Shown one piece after another: positions 9,994 to 17,941 of a DNA stretch of 64,000 bases (positions within the stretch are counted from its first letter, which is position 1; every line of letters begins with the position of its first letter). A program made the position numbers and the translations under genes. The notes below the pieces were generated by a model that was given only the letters and a program-made list of their open reading frames with translations, searched no databases and was not told the origin of the DNA. Source of the DNA: Brevundimonas sp. AAP58 (GTDB taxonomy: Bacteria; Pseudomonadota; Alphaproteobacteria; Caulobacterales; Caulobacteraceae); NCBI RefSeq assembly GCF_001295975.1, contig NZ_LJHU01000075.1, positions 1 to 64,000 of the forward strand, given 5' to 3'.

Positions 9994-11226
9994 ATGCGCG
10001 CCATGACCGTCGTTCTGGACGAACTGGCCGCGCCCGCGTGCCCCCTGCCCGACATCGCCGCCCCCGACATGGATGAGGCGGTCGAGGCCGCGCGCGCGGC
10101 CGTCGGCCTGCCGCTGGGCAGCCGCATCGTGGCGGCCATGTCCGGCGGGGTGGACTCCACCGTCGTGGCGGCCCTGCTGCACAAGGCGGGCTATGACGTC
10201 GTCGGCGTGACGCTGCAGCTCTATGACCACGGCGCGGCGCTGAAGAAGAAGGGGGCCTGCTGCGCGGGGCAGGACATCCACGACGCGCGTCTGGCCGCCG
10301 AGACCATCGGCATCCCCCACTACGTCCTGGATTACGAGAGCCGCTTCCGGGACTCGGTCATCGACCAGTTCGCCGACGACTATCTGGCAGGCCGCACGCC
10401 CGTGCCGTGCATCCGCTGCAACCAGACGGTCAAGTTCCGCGACCTGCTGGACGTGGCGCGCGACCTGGGGGCCGACGCCATGGCGACGGGCCACTACGTC
10501 GGCCGTGCCGTCGGCGCTGATGGTCGCACGCAGATGAGGAAGGCCATCGACCCGTCACGCGACCAGTCCTACTTCCTGTTCGCCACGACGCGCGACCAGC
10601 TGGACTATCTGCGGTTTCCCCTGGCCGGGCTGGAGAAGCCGGCCGTGCGGGGCGTGGCGGCGGAGCTGGGCCTGAGGATCGCCGCCAAGCCGGACAGCCA
10701 GGACATCTGCTTCGTGCCGTCGGGCGACTATCGCACCCTGATCGACCGGCTGCGTCCGCAGGGGCGTGAGGCCGGCGAGATCGTGCACATGGACGGCCGG
10801 GTGCTGGGCAGCCACGGCGGCATCACCGACTACACGATCGGTCAGAGGCGCGGGCTGAACGTGGCCGTCGGCGAGCCGCTGTTCGTGGTGAAGCTGGAGC
10901 CTGAGACGCGGCGCGTGGTCGTGGGTCCACGCGAGGCGCTGCTGACCGCGTCGCTGACACTGGACGAGACCAACTGGCTGGGTGACCAGGGGACCATCGA
11001 GGCAGCCGCTGATGCCGGCGCGCGGGTGCTGGCCCGGGTCCGCTCGACCCGCCCCCCCTCCCCCGCCCTGCTGGCGCTCGCCGACGGCGCGGTCTCGGTG
11101 GTTTTCGACGCGGGCGAGGAAGGCGTCGCCCCCGGCCAGGCCTGCGCCCTCTACGATCCCGCCGACCCCGACCGACTGCTGGGCGGCGGCTTCATCGCCT
11201 CGACCACGGCCGTCCTCATTGTCTGA
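9994..11226 (+). CDS. mnmA: tRNA-specific 2-thiouridylase MnmA
   Basis: 410 residues. The PP-loop SGGVDS for ATP binding is at about residues 50-55. Further motifs are [14 protein letters not shown] with the nucleophilic Cys, [21 protein letters not shown], and [13 protein letters not shown] with the second catalytic Cys. The enzyme adds sulfur to C2 of the wobble uridine in tRNA Lys, Glu and Gln. The N-terminus carries about 35 extra residues before the PP-loop domain compared with E. coli, so a later start such as an internal ATG is possible. Its last bases overlap the TTG start of the hemerythrin gene. Confidence 0.93.
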
Positions 11227-11782
11227 CGCGCTCGAGGTTCGTACTGGCCTGCCCGAGGCCCATCGCTGGCTGCTGGAGACCTATCCGCGCCTGCGCTGGC
11301 ACGACGCGGAACTGGGCGAGGTCGCGCGGTTCTGGCTGCAGATGCACGCGGGCTTTCGCCACAAGCAGGCGGAGATGGAGCGCCACGTCACGGTGTGGCG
11401 AACCGGGGGCGACCTGGTCGCCCTGCATCGTGGACTGATCCCGACGCTTCAGGCCTATCTTCAGCATCTGGACGGGCATCACCGGGTCGAGACCGGCCAC
11501 TATTTTCCGGTCATGCGCCGTGTGGAGCCCCGGATCACGACGGGGATTGACCTGCTGGACGCCGACCACGAGGCCATCCACGGCCATCTCGAGACGCTGT
11601 TCAAGGCGGGACTGGCGTTTCACCAGGCGCTGGCGGGCGGAGCCCTGGACGCCGCGGACCGGGCCGCGCGACTGGCCGAGGTGCTGGATCGCGTCACGCC
11701 CGCCGCCTGCCGCCACCTGGAGGACGAGGAGGACATCGTCATCCCCCTGATCCAGCGCCACGCGGACGCGTTCGCGCACTGA
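11219..11782 (+). CDS. Hemerythrin HHE domain protein
   Basis: About 187 residues if translation begins at TTG 11219, overlapping the mnmA stop; no ATG fits before the conserved domain. The protein is helical and rich in metal-ligand His/Glu: [32 protein letters not shown] and [18 protein letters not shown], matching the HHE cation-binding pattern used to bind a di-iron centre. Possible roles are oxygen, NO or redox handling. Its last ~54 bases were copied twice downstream (at 13714 and 15620), so this gene is the anchor from which the cassette array was duplicated. Confidence 0.8.
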
Positions 11783-12020
11783 GGCGGACATCGGCCGATC
11801 ACATCTGCGCGACCTGCTCGTGGACGCATTAACTCCAGATTGTCAGCCGACGGTCATTTCGCAGTACGGGACCAACCTGATCCGACAGCAAATTCTCATC
11901 TGCGATACCGTCCTGTCGCCGGTCGCGCAGGGTGAACGCCCGACGCACAGCTCCATTGACAGCCCCCCCCCCGTTTCGAGCGAGGGTTGCGTGCGGGCTT
12001 TTCCGCCAGGAGGATAGGAT
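11729..12020 (+). repeat. Cassette leader repeat R1 (first copy)
   Basis: A ~290-base block that recurs at 13714-14004 and 15620-15904. Here its first ~54 bases are the functional 3' end of the hemerythrin gene. The rest (11783-12020) is non-coding and ends at the ATG of the first Cys-rich peptide. Conserved landmarks are GATCACAT, TTAACTCCAGATTGTCAG, GGTCATTTCGCAGT, TTGACA (11956-11961), a run of ten C (11963-11972), CGAGCGAGGGTTG and a GGAGGAT ribosome-binding site. TTGACA is a plausible -35 box; no clear -10 is visible. Confidence 0.85.
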
Positions 12021-12227
12021 ATGCCGAAGACCAAGCTTATCGCCGCATCCGTCGCGTCCCTGACCATTTTCGCGCTTACCCCGCTTCAGGCGTTTGCGGG
12101 TTCGCCGACCTGTCGTGCGTGCTTCTTGGGATGCCTCGAGTCCTACAGTGGCGACGAGTATCTGCTGTCACAGTGCACGGCCAACTGCTTGGACTCTGAC
12201 GGTACTTTCTGCCAAGCCGATCTCTGA
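12021..12227 (+). CDS. Cassette 1 secreted six-cysteine peptide
   Basis: 68 residues: a signal peptide (MPKTKLIAAS... ending near QAFAG) and a ~42-residue mature part. The cysteines follow C-X2-C-X3-C-X13-C-X3-C-X7-C, the same spacing as in the cassette 3 peptide. The core C-X3-C-X13-C-X3-C resembles twin-CX3C helical hairpins such as small TIMs and plant alpha-hairpinins, so a disulfide-pinned two-helix hairpin is likely (inference). Shared residues outside the Cys include CLxxYxxDxYLxxQC and CxDxxGxxCQ. GGAGGAT precedes the ATG. I know no named family for it. Confidence 0.75.
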   Translation: MPKTKLIAASVASLTIFALTPLQAFAGSPTCRACFLGCLESYSGDEYLLSQCTANCLDSDGTFCQADL

Positions 12228-12338: not shown

Positions 12339-12944
12339 ATGCAGCTACGCCTAGATGCTCTTCTTGCAGTCTTTGGCCTGCTTTTGCCGATACAAGACAC
12401 AGTTGGTCGATTTACGGCTAGAGAGCTCGTCGAAATAGCAGACCGATATTGCATTTCGCCCGACGGCGACCATTCGTGGACTCTCGATTTAGCGATACAC
12501 AACGGATATCAGCCACTCACGCCAGACCTTTTCGAGAATTTGCGCCTGCCCGGCGCAAGGCAACTTCGAGGTGTCAGCAGAATCATTGACGGATCTGAGG
12601 TGCGCATTCTTACCGCCAAGAACCGCATTCGGTACGGCGGCGTCACAACATACTTCCATGTTTGCTGGGTCGCAGCCGATCCCGCATCCCGGCGCGACGT
12701 CGATAGTGAAGTCCGCCGCTTTCTGGACATCGAACGGTTCAGACAGGAAGGCGCGTTTGTCTATGCATGGCTACCCCAACCGGATGGCACAAGACGAACC
12801 GTACGTCGCAAGGCATTTGAGCTCCAGGGCTTCGCTTTGTCTCGTGACCAGGGCATGCGTCTGGTTTTAACCAATCAGTATCTCGACCAAGTGTCGATCA
12901 CCTATATGCGCCCGGTGGAGAGCTGCGAAGACTGGTGCTATTGA
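12339..12944 (+). CDS. Cassette 1 secreted protein, subfamily A
   Basis: 201 residues with a signal peptide (MQLRLDALLAVFGLLLPIQ). Shared family motifs are ADRYCISPDGDH, LRLPGARQLRG, VRILTAKNR, HVCWVAA, VYAWLPQPDG and SRDQGMRL. The C-terminus ESCEDWCY marks subfamily A, matched by EDCEGWCY in the cassette 3 gene at 16784. It has four cysteines: two family-wide (YC, CW) and two in the tail. The gene and its flanks are visibly richer in A and T than the surroundings. Its ribosome-binding site is weak. I do not recognise the family and assign no function. Confidence 0.75.
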   Translation: MQLRLDALLAVFGLLLPIQDTVGRFTARELVEIADRYCISPDGDHSWTLDLAIHNGYQPLTPDLFENLRLPGARQLRGVSRIIDGSEVRILTAKNRIRYGGVTTYFHVCWVAADPASRRDVDSEVRRFLDIERFRQEGAFVYAWLPQPDGTRRTVRRKAFELQGFALSRDQGMRLVLTNQYLDQVSITYMRPVESCEDWCY

Positions 12945-13059
12945 TCATCAGCATGTTCCGGATGGTCTATTTTTTGAAATGATAACTGGCGTCGAAACCT
13001 ACATTTGATCATATCGTTATCAGGGTAGATCAAGAGTTTTTCTTGGAATAGTTCTGATA

Positions 13060-13668
13060 TTGTCTACCTTGCTCGCCGGGTCTCAGGCCTCCTCTACCGC
13101 CGATGCAGAGGCGACAGAGCTGCTCGAACGATACTGCCTGGCGTGGGGCGGCGATCACCGGGTAACGTGGCAGCGACTCGAGGAAGATGGTTTCGAGCAG
13201 AGGGAGCGAGATCGACCCGAGGAGAGCCTCCTAGGCGTGGTGGACGCATCACTTCGTCTTTATGCCGGAGGTGACGACGGGCACGGTGCGAAGGTGATGA
13301 CTGGCGCGACTTGGATAACTGTACCGGATCAGGGTCGCACCCACTATCGCATGTGCTGGGTCTCTGCCCCGGGCGACCCAGAGGTCGCCGATCGGCGGCT
13401 CCGCGATACCTTGAGCATCGACAGTTTCCGTGTGGTTCGAGGCATCCGCCTCTTCGCATGGATACCCCGGCCGGGAGACGTCAATGAACCGGTGTCCCGA
13501 CGCGAATACTTCCGCTCCGGGCAGCGTCTCGCACGGGATCAGGGACTTCGCATGGTGACGATCCGGGACCATGAGGGCCAAGTGTTCCTTGGCTATGCCA
13601 GCCCACGGGACGAAGCCACCTATCTTGGCTTCGACTGGTCCGGGCCGGAGCCGGTGCCCCGCCCGTGA
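13060..13668 (+). CDS. Cassette 1 secreted protein, subfamily B, with damaged start
   Basis: Very similar to the intact 16155 gene over most of its length (ERYCLAW.GDHR.TWQRLEEDGFE, HYRMCWVSAPGD, RLFAWIPRPGDVNEPVSRRE, GFDWSGPEPVPRP). Where that gene has GGA-ATG-CTG, this copy has AGA-GTT-TTT, so the ATG is lost. The frame upstream still encodes a hydrophobic signal-like stretch (VFLGIVLILSTLLAGSQA) from 13036. The only later start is TTG 13060, which would leave a shortened signal peptide. It may be poorly translated, or on the way to a pseudogene. The preceding 115 bases are strongly AT-rich and hold no gene. Confidence 0.6.
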   Translation: MSTLLAGSQASSTADAEATELLERYCLAWGGDHRVTWQRLEEDGFEQRERDRPEESLLGVVDASLRLYAGGDDGHGAKVMTGATWITVPDQGRTHYRMCWVSAPGDPEVADRRLRDTLSIDSFRVVRGIRLFAWIPRPGDVNEPVSRREYFRSGQRLARDQGLRMVTIRDHEGQVFLGYASPRDEATYLGFDWSGPEPVPRP

Positions 13669-13713
13669 GGGAAACTGAAGTTGCGAACGGCTTTGCTTCA
13701 TCTCAAGGTGCGG

Positions 13714-14004
13714 GAGGACATCGTCATCCCCCTGATCCAGCGCCACGCCGATGCCTTCGCGTCCTGAGGCGGCACCCGGGCGATCACATATGCGCGACCA
13801 GCGCGTCGGAGCGTTAACTCCAGATTGTCAGCGGGCGGTCATTTCGCAGTACGGGACCGCCCTGATCTAAAAGCGAATTCCCGACCGTAATGCTGTCTTG
13901 TCACCTGTCCCGCAGGGTGAACGCCCGACACGCCGCTCTATTGACATGCCCCCCCCATTGCGAGCGAGGGTTGTGGGCGGGCTTTTCCGCGAGGAGGGTT
14001 GGAC
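13714..14004 (+). repeat. Cassette leader repeat R2 (second copy)
   Basis: Second ~290-base leader. It opens with a copy of the hemerythrin gene's 3' end (GAGGACATCGTCATCCCC through TTCGCG and a TGA), now detached from any hemerythrin frame. It keeps TTAACTCCAGATTGTCAG, GGTCATTTCGCAGTACGGGAC, TTGACA at 13941-13946, a run of eight C (13949-13956) and GAGGAGGG before the peptide ATG. The 336-base gene-free stretch 13669-14004 consists of this block plus 45 bases with no visible feature. Confidence 0.85.
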
Positions 14005-14217
14005 ATGAAATGGCTAAAGGTGACGGCTGCGGCGATGATGTCTCTGGGCCTCGTTTCGATGGCACCCCAGGCGTCCTGCGCAGCGAACGGTGCTTGCCAA
14101 GGCTGCTACAATTGATGTCTGCAGACTTACGGCGACGACCTGTATCTCTTTACGCAATGCTTGGACCATTGCGTGGATGAGAATGGTATTCCCTGCCAAA
14201 GCGATGCTGGGGGCTGA
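14005..14217 (+). pseudogene. Cassette 2 six-cysteine peptide, interrupted by in-frame TGA
   Basis: Begins at ATG 14005 with a signal sequence (MKWLKVTAAAMMSLGL...) almost base-identical to the cassette 3 peptide, two differences being visible in the first ~77 bases. Codon 37 is TGA (14113-14115) where cassette 3 has AGT (Ser). After it the frame stays open to TGA 14215-14217 and retains CLQTYGDDLYLFTQC, CVDENGIPC and the six-Cys spacing. Termination at codon 37 would leave only two of the six pattern cysteines. It looks like a recently inactivated copy. Selenocysteine is unlikely because the homologous residue is Ser or Gly. Confidence 0.75.
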
Positions 14218-14244
14218 TCGGGCTATTCGGACCGATATCACCAC

Positions 14245-14877
14245 ATGATCAGTGACTTACTCATCGCTACACTGCTGGGCACTGGCACGCTACAGCCAAG
14301 GGAATCTGAGCCTCCCTTGGCTGTCTTGGCCGACCGCTACTGCATCGGCCCTGACGGCGATCATCGCGCGACGTGGCAGTACGCCACCGAGGACGGATTT
14401 TCTCCCCTCAATCCTGACGAGTTCGTCGGCCTGCGCCTTCCCGGTTTCACCTCCCGATTGCGCGCTTTCAGGAAGCTTGAAGCGGACAGGGAGCTGAGAG
14501 TCCTGACTTCGGCCGGCTATATCGGCGGGGCCGGTCAAGGCAGAACATACTACCGGTACTGCTGGGTTTCTTCGACCCAGGAGGACGTTCAAAATGTCGA
14601 TCGTGACCTCGAAGCGTTGACTGGCACCGCGAGCTTCAGGGTCGAGGGTCGAACACGCCTCTTCGCGTGGATTCCCAGACCGGGAGGCGAAGTCGAGCGG
14701 GTGTCCAGACGCCTCTACATGCTGTCGGGATGGGTTCTCGCTCGGGAACAAGGACTGAGACAGGTCACGATCCGTCCCTACGACGCGGGTGTCTTTGTTG
14801 GGTATGCAAGTCCACGCACCGAGGAAACATATGAGGGCGCAGACTGGTCCGGGCCCGAGCCGGTGCCGCGACCGTGA
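14245..14877 (+). CDS. Cassette 2 secreted protein, subfamily B (first)
   Basis: 210 residues with a short hydrophobic leader (MISDLLIATLLGTG). Family motifs are ADRYCIGPDGDHRATWQY, LRLPGF, ELRVLTSAG, YRYCWVSS, RLFAWIPRPGG, LAREQGLRQVTI, VFVGYASPRTEETYE and the subfamily B ending DWSGPEPVPRP. It has two conserved cysteines (YC and CW). Its closest relative is the next gene, 14874. Its stop overlaps that gene's GTG by four bases (GTGA), so the two are translated together. The family is not recognised and the function is unknown. Confidence 0.8.
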   Translation: MISDLLIATLLGTGTLQPRESEPPLAVLADRYCIGPDGDHRATWQYATEDGFSPLNPDEFVGLRLPGFTSRLRAFRKLEADRELRVLTSAGYIGGAGQGRTYYRYCWVSSTQEDVQNVDRDLEALTGTASFRVEGRTRLFAWIPRPGGEVERVSRRLYMLSGWVLAREQGLRQVTIRPYDAGVFVGYASPRTEETYEGADWSGPEPVPRP

Positions 14878-15551
14878 ACCTCGGCGCACAGGGCTTTGTC
14901 GTCGCATTGTTATGCTGCCTCTGTCTGTTGGCGACGACCCCAACACCGGCGCTCCCGCAGACTTCTGGCTCTTTCAACGGCAGCGATCTGGTCGGACTGG
15001 CCGACCGTTACTGCATCGGCCCCGACGGCGACCATCGCGCGACGTGGCAGTACATCGCCGAGGACGGCTTCACTCCGCTGACGGCCGAGGACTTTCCGAA
15101 CCTGCATCTGCCCGGGTCGTTCGAGCGACACATCCGGGCCTTTCGCAAGTTCGAAGGCTCACGCGAGTTGCGCGTGATCACGGCGGCCAACCGGATGCGC
15201 GCGCCCGGTCAGGGGATTACCTATTTGCGATGGTGCTGGGTCTCGTCATCGGTCGACGACGTTCGTCGGGTCGACGGCGACATGCGGGAGCTGGTGGGCG
15301 TCAGAAGTTTCCGGGTGGAGGGTCCCACGCGCCTGTTCGCGTGGATTCCGCGTCCGGACGGATCGAACGAAGCCATCTCGCGGCGCGTCTTCATGAGAGA
15401 GGGCTGGACCCTCGCGCGTGAACAAGGCTTGCGCCAGCTGACGCTGACATCTCATGAGGGCGGCGTCTTTGTCGGCTACGCCAGCCCGCGCACCGAGGAG
15501 ACCTGGGAGGGCTTCGACTGGTCCGGCCCCGAGCCCGTGCCGAGGCCGTGA
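14874..15551 (+). CDS. Cassette 2 secreted protein, subfamily B (second)
   Basis: 225 residues starting at GTG 14874 within the previous stop. The signal peptide is strong (VVALLCCLCLLATT... to about residue 29). Motifs are LADRYCIGPDGDHRATWQY, LHLPGSFERHIRAFRKFEG, ELRVITAANRM, LRWCWVSSS, RLFAWIPRPDGSNE, LAREQGLRQLTL, VFVGYASPRTEETWEGF and DWSGPEPVPRP. The stretch AANRM at the central site is closer to subfamily A (LTAKNR, LTANNR), so it may be near the ancestral form. Inferred to be exported across the inner membrane and disulfide-bonded. Function unknown. Confidence 0.8.
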   Translation: MNLGAQGFVVALLCCLCLLATTPTPALPQTSGSFNGSDLVGLADRYCIGPDGDHRATWQYIAEDGFTPLTAEDFPNLHLPGSFERHIRAFRKFEGSRELRVITAANRMRAPGQGITYLRWCWVSSSVDDVRRVDGDMRELVGVRSFRVEGPTRLFAWIPRPDGSNEAISRRVFMREGWTLAREQGLRQLTLTSHEGGVFVGYASPRTEETWEGFDWSGPEPVPRP

Positions 15552-15619
15552 CCGGGGGGAGAACCGGCAGCGCAGACGAGCGCGGCGATTCATCGCCACA
15601 GCGATGGGCTCGCCCCCGG

Positions 15620-15904
15620 TCGTCATCCCCCTGATCCAGCGCCATGCCGACGCTTTCGCGCGCTGAGGCGGACATCGGGCGATCACATCTGCGCGACCTG
15701 CTCGTGGACGCATTAACTCCAGATTGTCAGCCGGCGGTCATTTCGCAGTGCGGGACCGATCTGATCCGACAGCGATTTCCCGACCACAATGCCGGTCTGT
15801 CCCTGGTCTCGCCGGGTGAATGCCCGTCGCGCCGCTCCATTGACAAGCCCCCCCCCCTTTCGAGCGAGGGTTGCGCGCGGGCTTTTCCGCAAGGAGGATT
15901 GGAC
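15620..15904 (+). repeat. Cassette leader repeat R3 (third copy)
   Basis: Third leader, starting within the copied hemerythrin 3' end at TCGTCATCCCCCTGATCCAG and ending at the peptide ATG 15905. Most positions match R1 by eye, including GCGCGACCTGCTCGTGGACG and TTAACTCCAGATTGTCAG. TTGACA is at 15840-15845, a run of nine C at 15848-15856, and AAGGAGGATT is the ribosome-binding site. The 353-base gap 15552-15904 is this block preceded by 68 bases with no gene or clear site. Confidence 0.85.
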
Positions 15905-16114
15905 ATGAAATGGCTGAAGGTGACGGCTGCGGCGATGATGTCTCTGGGCCTCGTTTCGATGGCACCCCAAGCGTCCTGCGCTTCGAGTGGCGCTTGTCAA
16001 GTATGTTACAACAGTTGTCTGCAAAACTACGGTGACGACTTGTATCTCTTTACACAATGCTACAGCCATTGCGTCGATGAATACGGAACTCCCTGTCAGG
16101 ATGATACGCCTTAA
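15905..16114 (+). CDS. Cassette 3 secreted six-cysteine peptide
   Basis: 69 residues, the intact reference copy. The signal peptide ends around residue 24-26 (APQASCAS). The mature part carries CQVCYNSC, LQNYGDDLYLFTQ, CYSHC and VDEYGTPCQ, giving C-X2-C-X3-C-X13-C-X3-C-X7-C. It is acidic overall, unlike most membrane-lytic antimicrobial peptides. AAGGAGGATT precedes ATG 15905. A longer frame upstream to 15644 runs through the leader repeat and is not used. A helical hairpin held by CX3C pairs is inferred. No processing or export gene is adjacent, so Sec export is assumed from the signal peptide. Confidence 0.78.
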   Translation: MKWLKVTAAAMMSLGLVSMAPQASCASSGACQVCYNSCLQNYGDDLYLFTQCYSHCVDEYGTPCQDDTP

Positions 16115-16154
16115 CTGAGCTAAGTGTATCTATTGGGAGCAGGGCGGATCAGGA

Positions 16155-16787
16155 ATGCTGCTTCGAATCGCTTTAGTCTGGTCCGCCTTGTTCGTTGGGG
16201 TTCAGGAGGCTCCAACCGCCGGTGATGAAGCAACCGAGCTTCTCGAACGATACTGCCTCGCGTGGGATGGTGATCACCGGGCGACGTGGCAGCGCCTTGA
16301 GGAAGACGGCTTCGAGCGGATTGAGCGGGATCGACCCGGCGAGTCGCTGTTCGGCGTGCTGGACGCGACACTTCGCATCTATGCCCCCAATGGCGCGGAC
16401 CACGACACCAGGGTGATGACGGGCGCGACCTGGATCACCTCACCGGATCAGGGACGGGCTCACTATCGCATGTGCTGGGTCTCCGCCCCCGGCGACGCTG
16501 AGGCTGCGGATCGGCGACTCCGCAATACCTTGAACATCGCCAGTTTCCGTGTGGTCCGAGGCACCCGCCTCTTCGCATGGATACCCCGGCCCGGAGACGT
16601 CAATGAACCGGTGTCCCGACGCGAATACTTCCGCTCCGGGCAGCGTCTCGCACGGGAACAGGGACTTCGCATGGTGACGATCCGGGACCACGAGGGCCAG
16701 GTGTTCCTCGGCTATGCCAGCCCACGGGACGAAGCGACCTATCTCGGCTTCGACTGGTCCGGGCCGGAGCCGATGCCGAGACCATGA
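16155..16787 (+). CDS. Cassette 3 secreted protein, subfamily B
   Basis: 210 residues with an intact ATG and signal peptide (MLLRIALVWSALFVGVQ). It is the near twin of the cassette 1 gene at 13060, from LLERYCLAW.GDHR through SFRVVRG.RLFAWIPRPGDV to the ending GFDWSGPEP.PRP. This B1/B4 branch lacks the PDGDH form (AWDGDH instead) and has TGATWIT in place of TAKNR. It has two conserved cysteines in the mature part. Its stop overlaps the ATG of the next gene by four bases. Function unknown. Confidence 0.8.
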   Translation: MLLRIALVWSALFVGVQEAPTAGDEATELLERYCLAWDGDHRATWQRLEEDGFERIERDRPGESLFGVLDATLRIYAPNGADHDTRVMTGATWITSPDQGRAHYRMCWVSAPGDAEAADRRLRNTLNIASFRVVRGTRLFAWIPRPGDVNEPVSRREYFRSGQRLAREQGLRMVTIRDHEGQVFLGYASPRDEATYLGFDWSGPEPMPRP

Positions 16788-17434
16788 CCAACGAAGCCGG
16801 TCAGAAGCAAACAAGACGGCGGCCCGTCACGGCAGCAGCTATCGGTTCGACACTCATCGCCTTGTCTGCCGTTTCAGCTGCAGCCGCGCGCTCGGAAATA
16901 GGCGCGGGCGACTTCTACGCCATGGCCGACCGCTACTGCATCCGACCCGATGGCGATCATCCGCTGACCTGGGCATTGGCCGAAAGCGATGGCTGGGTCG
17001 TGCTTGATCCATCGCAGTTCGAGGGATTAAGCCTGCCCGGCGCGCGCCAGCTCCGAGGTTATGAGACGGTGCGAGATGGGGTTCGGCTTCGCATCTTGAC
17101 CGCAAACAACCGTTTCCGCGGTTGGAACGCTGGGATCACCTATTTCAATCTGTGCTGGGTGAGCGCGGAGCCCTTCGACCGGCAGGAACTGGACGAGGAG
17201 ATACGATCCCAACTCGCCATCCCGGGATTCCGACAGGAAGGCGCGCGGGTCTACGCTTGGGTGCCTCTGCCAAACGGCGGTCGCCGTATTGTTGGGTCGA
17301 GAGAGTTTCAACGTCGCTTCCATGCAATCGCAAGGGAAGACGGCATGCGAATGCTCCTGTCCAATGATCGCCAGGGCATGGTCGCCGCAACCTACATGAA
17401 GGCCACGGAGGACTGTGAAGGGTGGTGCTACTGA
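16784..17434 (+). CDS. Cassette 3 secreted protein, subfamily A
   Basis: 216 residues with an Arg-rich n-region (QTRRRP) and signal peptide to about ALSAVSAAAARS. Shared motifs are ADRYCIRPDGDH, LSLPGARQLRG, LRILTANNRFR, NLCWVSA, GFRQEGARVYAWVPLPNG and REDGMRMLL, with the subfamily A ending EDCEGWCY. Its partner in cassette 1 is the 12339 gene. In cassette 1 the order is A then B; here it is B then A. The stop lies 3 bases from the convergent HxlR-type regulator, so there is no room for a separate terminator. Confidence 0.8.
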   Translation: MTNEAGQKQTRRRPVTAAAIGSTLIALSAVSAAAARSEIGAGDFYAMADRYCIRPDGDHPLTWALAESDGWVVLDPSQFEGLSLPGARQLRGYETVRDGVRLRILTANNRFRGWNAGITYFNLCWVSAEPFDRQELDEEIRSQLAIPGFRQEGARVYAWVPLPNGGRRIVGSREFQRRFHAIAREDGMRMLLSNDRQGMVAATYMKATEDCEGWCY

Positions 17435-17437
17435 CCC

Positions 17438-17941
17438 TCAGGCGGCCTCTTCGGACACGGGTTCCTTGGGCAGGACCTCGCCGACGGTCGGGCGGTTGGC
17501 GTGGAAATGGATCTCGGTGTCGCGCCGCTTCACGATCTCGCCGCAGCAAGAGCAGGCGACGCGGGGCTTGAGCTCGTGGCCGCAGGTGGTGTGGGTGAAG
17601 GTCACGCCGGAATCGACCTCGCCGTACAGGTGCTGGGAGCCCCAGCCGTGCATGACGATCAGGACGTCGGACAAGGCCCGGCCCTTGGCGGTCAGGACGT
17701 ACTCGTTCCGTGGCGGCCGCTCGGAATAGAGCTGCGGTTCCAGGATGCCGTGCTGGACCAGGGATTTCAGCCGGGCGGCGAGAACGTTGCGGGCCACGCC
17801 CAGACGTTCCTGCCATTGCTCGAAGCGCTTCACGCCCTGAAAGGCGTCGCGGATGACCAGCAGGGTCCAGGGGTCGCCAATCACTTCCAGCGTGGCGGCG
17901 ATCGAGCAGCTCTGGCGAGAATAGTCGGCGGTGCGTCCCAT
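17438..17941 (-). CDS. HxlR-family transcriptional regulator
   Basis: 167 residues. The winged helix (HxlR/MarR-like) covers residues ~10-100: CSIAATLEVIGDPWTLLVIRD, FEQWQERLGVARNVLAARL, and the wing RPPRNEYVLTAKG. The C-terminal part has a Cys/His cluster (TCGHELKPRVACSCCGEIV) that could bind zinc, as seen in part of the family. A large inverted repeat sits two bases before the ATG, as expected for autorepression. It converges on the cassette array. Whether it controls the cassettes is open: its inverted repeat is not obviously present in the leader repeats. Confidence 0.85.
   Translation of the reverse strand: MGRTADYSRQSCSIAATLEVIGDPWTLLVIRDAFQGVKRFEQWQERLGVARNVLAARLKSLVQHGILEPQLYSERPPRNEYVLTAKGRALSDVLIVMHGWGSQHLYGEVDSGVTFTHTTCGHELKPRVACSCCGEIVKRRDTEIHFHANRPTVGEVLPKEPVSEEAA

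Follow-up and report, generated by a model that had tools for sequence, protein, structure and literature searches.

Among the described systems that bear comparison with the locus treated here, the two-protein bacteriocin of Caulobacter goes by the name of Cdz, and the porA and fetA genes of Neisseria have phase-variable promoters with homopolymer spacers. In the part of the published account drawn on here (PMC9484751), EsaG and TipC are Firmicute antidotes of type VII secretion loci, and their genes adjoin those of a known toxin and of its secretion system. The locus under study is an array of three gene cassettes in Brevundimonas sp. AAP58. It resides in a stretch of 64,000 nucleotides (contig NZ_LJHU01000075.1, positions 1 to 64,000), referred to as the window in the following. 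Each cassette consists of a gene for a small leader (L1 to L3) and two genes for larger proteins of type A or B, so that the array reads leader 1-A1-B1, leader 2-B2a-B2b and leader 3-B3-A3. It is flanked by a gene for a hemerythrin (HHE) domain protein on the left and a convergent regulator gene on the right. A first-pass annotation of the DNA sequence had proposed that the order of the six large genes (positions 12339 to 17434) requires recombination or gene conversion beyond simple tandem duplication. This proposal is supported: the trees reject whole-cassette copying and the modules of the array differ in age. Duplication of entire cassettes did not give rise to the array.

Results

Leaders, large genes and upstream regions have different histories

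Trees were calculated separately for the leaders and for the large genes, the latter together with relatives, namely two genes from genome G120, apparently the metagenome-assembled genome (MAG) B. subvibrioides 32-68-21, and one from genome G043. Both trees conflict with whole-cassette duplication, and trees in agreement with stepwise duplication, which the first-pass annotation had named as the outcome that would speak against its proposal, were not obtained. The topology that unites the position-1 genes on the one hand and the position-2 genes on the other is rejected with a log-likelihood difference of 318, and so is one that assumes duplication within the individual cassettes (difference of 248), with p ≤ 5.4e-6 for both in the approximately unbiased (AU) test. 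For the leaders, the grouping of L2 with L3 is the sole accepted topology (AU p 0.997 vs 0.003 for the alternatives). The noncoding region upstream of the leaders follows a third pattern, in which cassettes 1 and 3 are closest. Counts of shared sites for the cassette pairs 1-3, 2-3 and 1-2 amount to 27, 16 and 17 in the upstream noncoding region and to 7, 73 and 14 in the leader genes, and the change point is best placed immediately ahead of the start codon of the leader (permutation p 5e-5).

These upstream regions are part of a repeat of about 290 nt that precedes each leader (starting at 11736, 13721 and 15620) and opens with the 3' end of the HHE gene. Silent or noncoding sites were used for age estimates so that selection and age are separated. 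Divergence of the upstream noncoding region is 0.126 for cassettes 1 and 3 (28 of 223 sites differ), 0.176 for cassettes 2 and 3 (39 of 222 sites) and 0.189 for cassettes 1 and 2. The copied HHE ends of cassettes 2 and 3, which should lack a coding role, show a divergence of 0.085-0.106. Between L1 and L3, eight out of ten four-fold sites differ, which exceeds the divergence of the noncoding DNA just upstream (Fisher p 5.6e-6). Since these two leaders are saturated yet preceded by similar DNA, a break between cassettes 1 and 3 falls at the leader start. L2 and L3 differ at 7 of 26 four-fold sites, consistent with their own upstream DNA (p 0.28), whereas 31 of 53 such sites differ between B2a and B3 (p 8e-9 against the upstream noncoding region). 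The leaders are thus close and the genes behind them saturated, which places the break between cassettes 2 and 3 at the leader end.

A further shift in divergence is located inside the pair B1 and B3, where 85 of 306 positions differ to the left of the break and 25 of 324 to the right (permutation p 5e-5). At four-fold sites, the corresponding values are 18 of 37 and 11 of 60 (p 0.0027). The pattern fits a gene conversion that would have affected the 3' half of the gene. A1 and A3 differ at 28 of 48 four-fold sites compared with 29 of 97 for B1 and B3 (p 0.001), so A1/A3 is the much older pair, and cassettes 1 and 3 therefore do not represent a single duplication with swapped order. The longest exact stretch common to two cassettes comprises only 65 nt, which makes it unlikely that the cassette order is a product of read confusion during assembly. 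The array combines gain with decay, the latter seen in the stop codon within leader 2 and in the start of B1.

Large proteins

The large proteins comprise about 200 residues and contain two or four cysteines. As had been read in the first-pass annotation, RYC, GDH, CWV and AWxPxP are invariant columns in the alignment of all six, and all six reading frames hold. The products of 12339 and 16784 carry a second cysteine pair in their termini CEDWCY and CEGWCY, and those of 13060, 14245, 14874 and 16155 end with DWSGPEP(V/M)PRP. The cassette orders A-B, B-B and B-A are likewise correct, and 13060 and 16155 form the closest pair with 83% nucleotide identity. The start assigned to the former at TTG 13060 is unconvincing. 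Its sister 16155 has ATG where position 13036 reads GTT, and the TTG would cut the signal peptide. Between the in-frame stop at 13006 and TTG 13060, the first candidate, no ATG, GTG or TTG is present in frame.

An initial scan of a collection of genome contigs with the six-protein alignment gave zero matches. A profile search of the AAP58 genome recovered exactly these six proteins with E values of 5e-86 to 8e-107. The assignment to two subfamilies holds for type B, which forms a clade with a support of 98.3/97 in one tree and 100 in another and has no representative in any other genome searched. A clade of type A is neither shown nor rejected: a constraint forcing A1 and A3 together survives (AU p 0.286), and the best tree groups A1 with one of the genes from the MAG (G120_1) and A3 with that from G043, both with low support. 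Type A is more aptly regarded as the older form of the large protein.

Leaders

The leader genes comprise 68-70 codons and, as read from the sequence, encode a signal peptide followed by a six-cysteine mature part. Leader 2 (14005) has an internal TGA at codon 37, which the first-pass annotation had not recorded. A search of 131 Brevundimonas genomes with the leader profile yielded seven matches, six of which were kept. The seventh (G076, E 0.006), which would have marked a fourth leader-bearing genome, proved to be a longer glycine-rich protein. True leaders are thus present in three of the 131 genomes, and each of the six copies adjoins a large gene. L2 and L3 are of type B and precede B-type genes, while L1 and the two leaders of the MAG precede A-type genes. 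In G077, leader and large gene are divergently oriented and 107 nt apart. This pair (L031 7456-8369) is located behind a suf-like cluster; in all other leader pairs the orientation is tandem.

Upstream modules and poly-C runs

Chance-level matches aside, the upstream module has three copies in the genome. In modules 1, 2 and 3, no more than two bases separate TTGACA from an uninterrupted downstream C run of 10, 8 and 10 nucleotides, respectively. Other C or G runs of at least 8 nucleotides do not occur in the window, and exact matches to TTGAC-N3-C8 are restricted to these three in the whole genome. The copies in the MAG read TTGACT, lack the C run and retain the downstream block GAG...TTG...GCGNGCTTTTCCGC, which occurs three times in the AAP58 genome, always at the array. 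A scan of the upstream modules for sigma-70 promoters returned no sigma-70-type promoter. Poly-C runs of at least 9 nucleotides are mostly found at contig ends genome-wide. Those at the ends of contigs C6, C50, C56, C69, C81, C84, C115 and C124 may be assembly effects and were left out of account, leaving five internal runs, two of them in the array. Long poly-C of the same polarity terminates many contigs of the draft, possibly an artefact of the library or the assembly. A structured 5' RNA was considered and dropped: Rfam gave no match at E ≤ 1, and folding was not clearly better than that of shuffled sequences (z -0.8 to 2.1).

Occurrence in relatives

Comparison of the locus in Brevundimonas relatives, i.e., other species and a MAG, showed that cassette number and position change. 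In B. bacteroides DSM 4726, the nearest named relative, HHE gene and regulator gene are 92% and 98.8% identical to those in AAP58. The array is absent there, and the two genes lie 13 nt apart between their aligned ends. Cassettes were detected at one of the 27 named HHE loci scanned, that of the MAG (L150). Here, two leader-A cassettes reside between MnmA and HHE, i.e., on the flank of HHE opposite to that occupied in AAP58, and the 3' end of MnmA is copied before the second leader. As the HHE end is copied in AAP58 and the MnmA end in the MAG, the tandem copy carried along the end of whichever gene was upstream in both lineages. In another MAG, an unrelated gene for a protein of about 240 residues lies between MnmA and HHE (L128 6116-7001), so this junction took up inserts more than once.

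The A1 profile matched in 18 of the 131 Brevundimonas genomes and a wider profile in 47. Outside the genus, the wider profile matched weakly in two out of 385 genomes drawn from the class. Within the family, the A1 profile hit one genus out of 22. Members of the large family occur without a leader in 15 of the 18 genomes found with the A1 profile. In other Brevundimonas genomes, arrays of distant leaderless members surround sucC or lie between it and sucD (L033 6983-11915; L044 5517-7415), these genes being named by reading the sequence. Further members reside within a phage-type or gene transfer agent head-like cluster beside a capsid-like gene (L030 8001-8732; L029 7325-8014; names likewise read from the sequence). 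A mobile element as carrier appears improbable: no match was found among plasmids, phages and viral contigs, and the upstream module is confined to its three genomic copies.

Family and fold searches

Neither Pfam-A nor NCBIfam gave a match above cut-off for the proteins of the array, and none of 26 members of a wider alignment matched Pfam-A at E ≤ 0.1. The NMCC_0638 (lipo)protein family NF047650 was hit by seven of these 26, all distant, at E ≤ 0.1 (best 0.00037), the best score of 20.6 bits, from a distant member in the genus, staying below the curated cut-off of 28. The six window proteins gave no match to it at E ≤ 1. The likeness to NF047650 is therefore a weak profile match confined to distant members in the genus. 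PADLOC profiles did not match four large proteins and leader 3. Leader 1 matched no more than part of a model of 912 positions, at E 0.007. No PHROG family applied, and a search of solved structures by sequence returned nothing convincing.

Structure models of B2b and A3 (mean predicted local distance difference test values of 78 and 80) show an antiparallel sheet together with three helices, two preceding it and one following. Tsi3 and START proteins recur among the fold matches, weakly only, and comparison with START/PsbP/Tsi3-like folds gave best VIA Z scores of 4.8 (root-mean-square deviation 4.5, 103 residues aligned) and 5.6 (5.0, 102 aligned), which are not above background. In the libraries searched, neither protein family has been described, and both are almost restricted to a single genus. 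At title level, a literature search found no published account of the array.

Table 1 Features of the cassette array and its flanks in the 64-kb window.
Feature	Position	Strand	Remarks
Hemerythrin (HHE) domain gene	11222..11782	+	Pfam PF01814, E 5.2e-11; each upstream repeat opens with its 3' end
Upstream module 1	11736..12020	+	Real HHE gene end, noncoding region, TTGACA, C10 run 11963-11972, conserved GCGGGCTTTTCCGC, ribosome-binding site
Leader 1	12021..12227	+	68 aa; signal peptide, six-cysteine mature part
Large gene A1	12339..12944	+	CEDWCY end
Large gene B1	13036..13668	+	GTT at the ATG site of its sister; start lost or non-canonical
Upstream module 2	13713..14004	+	Copied HHE 3' end; C8 run 13949-13956
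Leader 2	14005..14217	+	Broken: in-frame TGA at codon 37
Large gene B2a	14245..14877	+	
Large gene B2b	14874..15551	+	4-nt overlap with B2a; structure model made
Upstream module 3	15614..15904	+	Copied HHE 3' end; C10 run 15848-15857
Leader 3	15905..16114	+	69 aa, intact
Large gene B3	16155..16787	+	Nearest to B1
Large gene A3	16784..17434	+	CEGWCY end; structure model made
Regulator gene, presumably HxlR-like	17438..17941	-	Right boundary of the array; 98.8% identical in B. bacteroides, beside the HHE gene there

Discussion

We consider it probable that the locus is a lineage-specific tandem array of secreted cysteine-containing proteins in leader-led sets, the modules of which have been reshuffled by recombination between paralogues. 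Three modules of different age, i.e., the HHE end with the promoter region, the leader and the large gene, meet at the start and stop codons of the leaders. Homologous recombination between paralogues within short similar stretches, in the form of unequal crossing-over and gene conversion, would place promoter-leader modules before diverged large genes and homogenise parts of the large genes, while other copies would decay, as leader 2 and B1 may have done. Since all six leaders found stand beside a large gene, a joint function of the two is likely. We tentatively suggest that the leader and the large gene in first position work jointly outside the cytoplasm: the peptide would be a ligand or toxin, which the large protein would bind or neutralise. 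The large genes in second position would then provide extra specificities, similar to arrays of orphan immunity genes.

Several observations weigh against this picture. The library searches recognised no toxin, immunity or exporter family, and Foldseek gave no match at E ≤ 0.001 for the structure models. The type of the leader agrees with that of the first large gene in all five pairs from AAP58 and the MAG, but these are five pairs only and such agreement is expected one time in ten by chance. With regard to gene conversion, the scan for the maximum difference is also positive for A1/A3 and B2a/B2b, two pairs whose diverged end is the signal peptide, and is thus unspecific when taken alone. 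The four-fold test for B1/B3 took its break from the same data. Finally, a longer ancestral array whose members diverged rapidly and independently and were lost differentially could account for the gene order in the absence of exchange, but does not account for the age breaks.

A stepwise course, in which entire cassettes were duplicated in tandem and then diverged unequally, is very improbable. The copied HHE ends that open the upstream repeats are what tandem duplication with an endpoint inside the HHE gene leaves behind, and the copied MnmA end in the MAG points in the same direction; yet the corresponding topology is rejected by the large-gene tree, and the ages at silent sites shift at the start and stop codons of the leaders. 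Duplication and loss in the absence of gene conversion, with different A and B members lost per cassette from a longer ancestral array, fares somewhat better and is nevertheless unlikely. The A/B orders could be derived from A-B-A-B by deletion, decaying copies exist in the form of leader 2 and B1, and leaderless arrays of distant members are present in other genomes. This course of events leaves unexplained why the age changes inside B1/B3 and why the close leaders L2 and L3 stand before the ancient pair B2a/B3.

Separate import of the cassettes from other Brevundimonas arrays by horizontal transfer, with recombination at the shared upstream repeat, is possible but would not be our first choice. 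The diversity would then have arisen between strains. Such an origin would be in line with the patchy distribution of large genes (18 of 131 genomes with the A1 profile) and leaders (3 of 131), with the lower GC content of the array genes (0.51-0.66 vs 0.67 for the window) and with the weakly supported affinities of A1 to G120_1 and of A3 to G043. On the other hand, a B-type donor array was found neither in the 131 genomes of the genus nor at the 27 named HHE loci nor among plasmids, phages and viral contigs, and neither junction repeats nor a recombinase were noticed. With respect to function, a comparable minority chance is given to an envelope or structural role of the large proteins, with leaders that are merely co-secreted and an array that serves dosage or antigenic variation. 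While the leaderless members in 15 of the 18 A1-profile genomes would agree with this, every one of the six leaders has an adjacent large gene.

Reshuffling of modules by recombination between paralogues therefore continues to be the preferred explanation. It describes a compact case with module boundaries at start and stop codons, and poses the question of whether selection matches the leader with its partner while recombination swaps the rest. Although undescribed in the libraries searched and found in little more than a single genus, the families concerned occur as tandem arrays at several sites, inserted beside housekeeping genes. If the poly-C runs slip, the array would also be a contingency locus. 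The juxtaposition of TTGACA and poly-C resembles the porA and fetA promoters of Neisseria, in which a homopolymer run directly follows the TTGACA box, but differs in that the sigma-70 scan found no promoter here. With regard to phase variation, this is a clue and does not amount to evidence. We regard it as rather doubtful that each cassette is switched independently by poly-C slippage while promoter, leader and large gene are shuffled singly, thereby diversifying the specificity of peptide and partner. If true, the array would be an alphaproteobacterial locus that unites shuffling and contingency. We know of no contingency loci in this bacterial group.

In comparison with known systems, a gene for a small peptide, secretion of which is predicted from sequence, stands beside a partner gene in six out of six copies, as in bacteriocin-immunity pairs. 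The Caulobacter bacteriocin, as described in the part of the source consulted (PMC5380434), also stems from an alphaproteobacterial relative and comprises secreted proteins for competition, but these are glycine-zipper proteins and are set apart from the present ones by description only. The proteins of the array and the layout of leader and partner are undescribed in the libraries searched. They differ from EsaG and TipC in being presumably secreted cysteine-containing proteins behind a small, likewise presumably secreted peptide, with no secretion machine recognised and no sequence relation apparent. Like the arrays of EsaG and TipC, as far as the part of that account used here goes, the locus consists of tandem non-identical paralogues with mosaic ancestry, recombination at shared blocks, trees that conflict part by part and pseudogenised copies (PMC9484751). 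By analogy, the mode of evolution proposed for the Brevundimonas array thus appears to resemble that of the recombining EsaG/TipC arrays.

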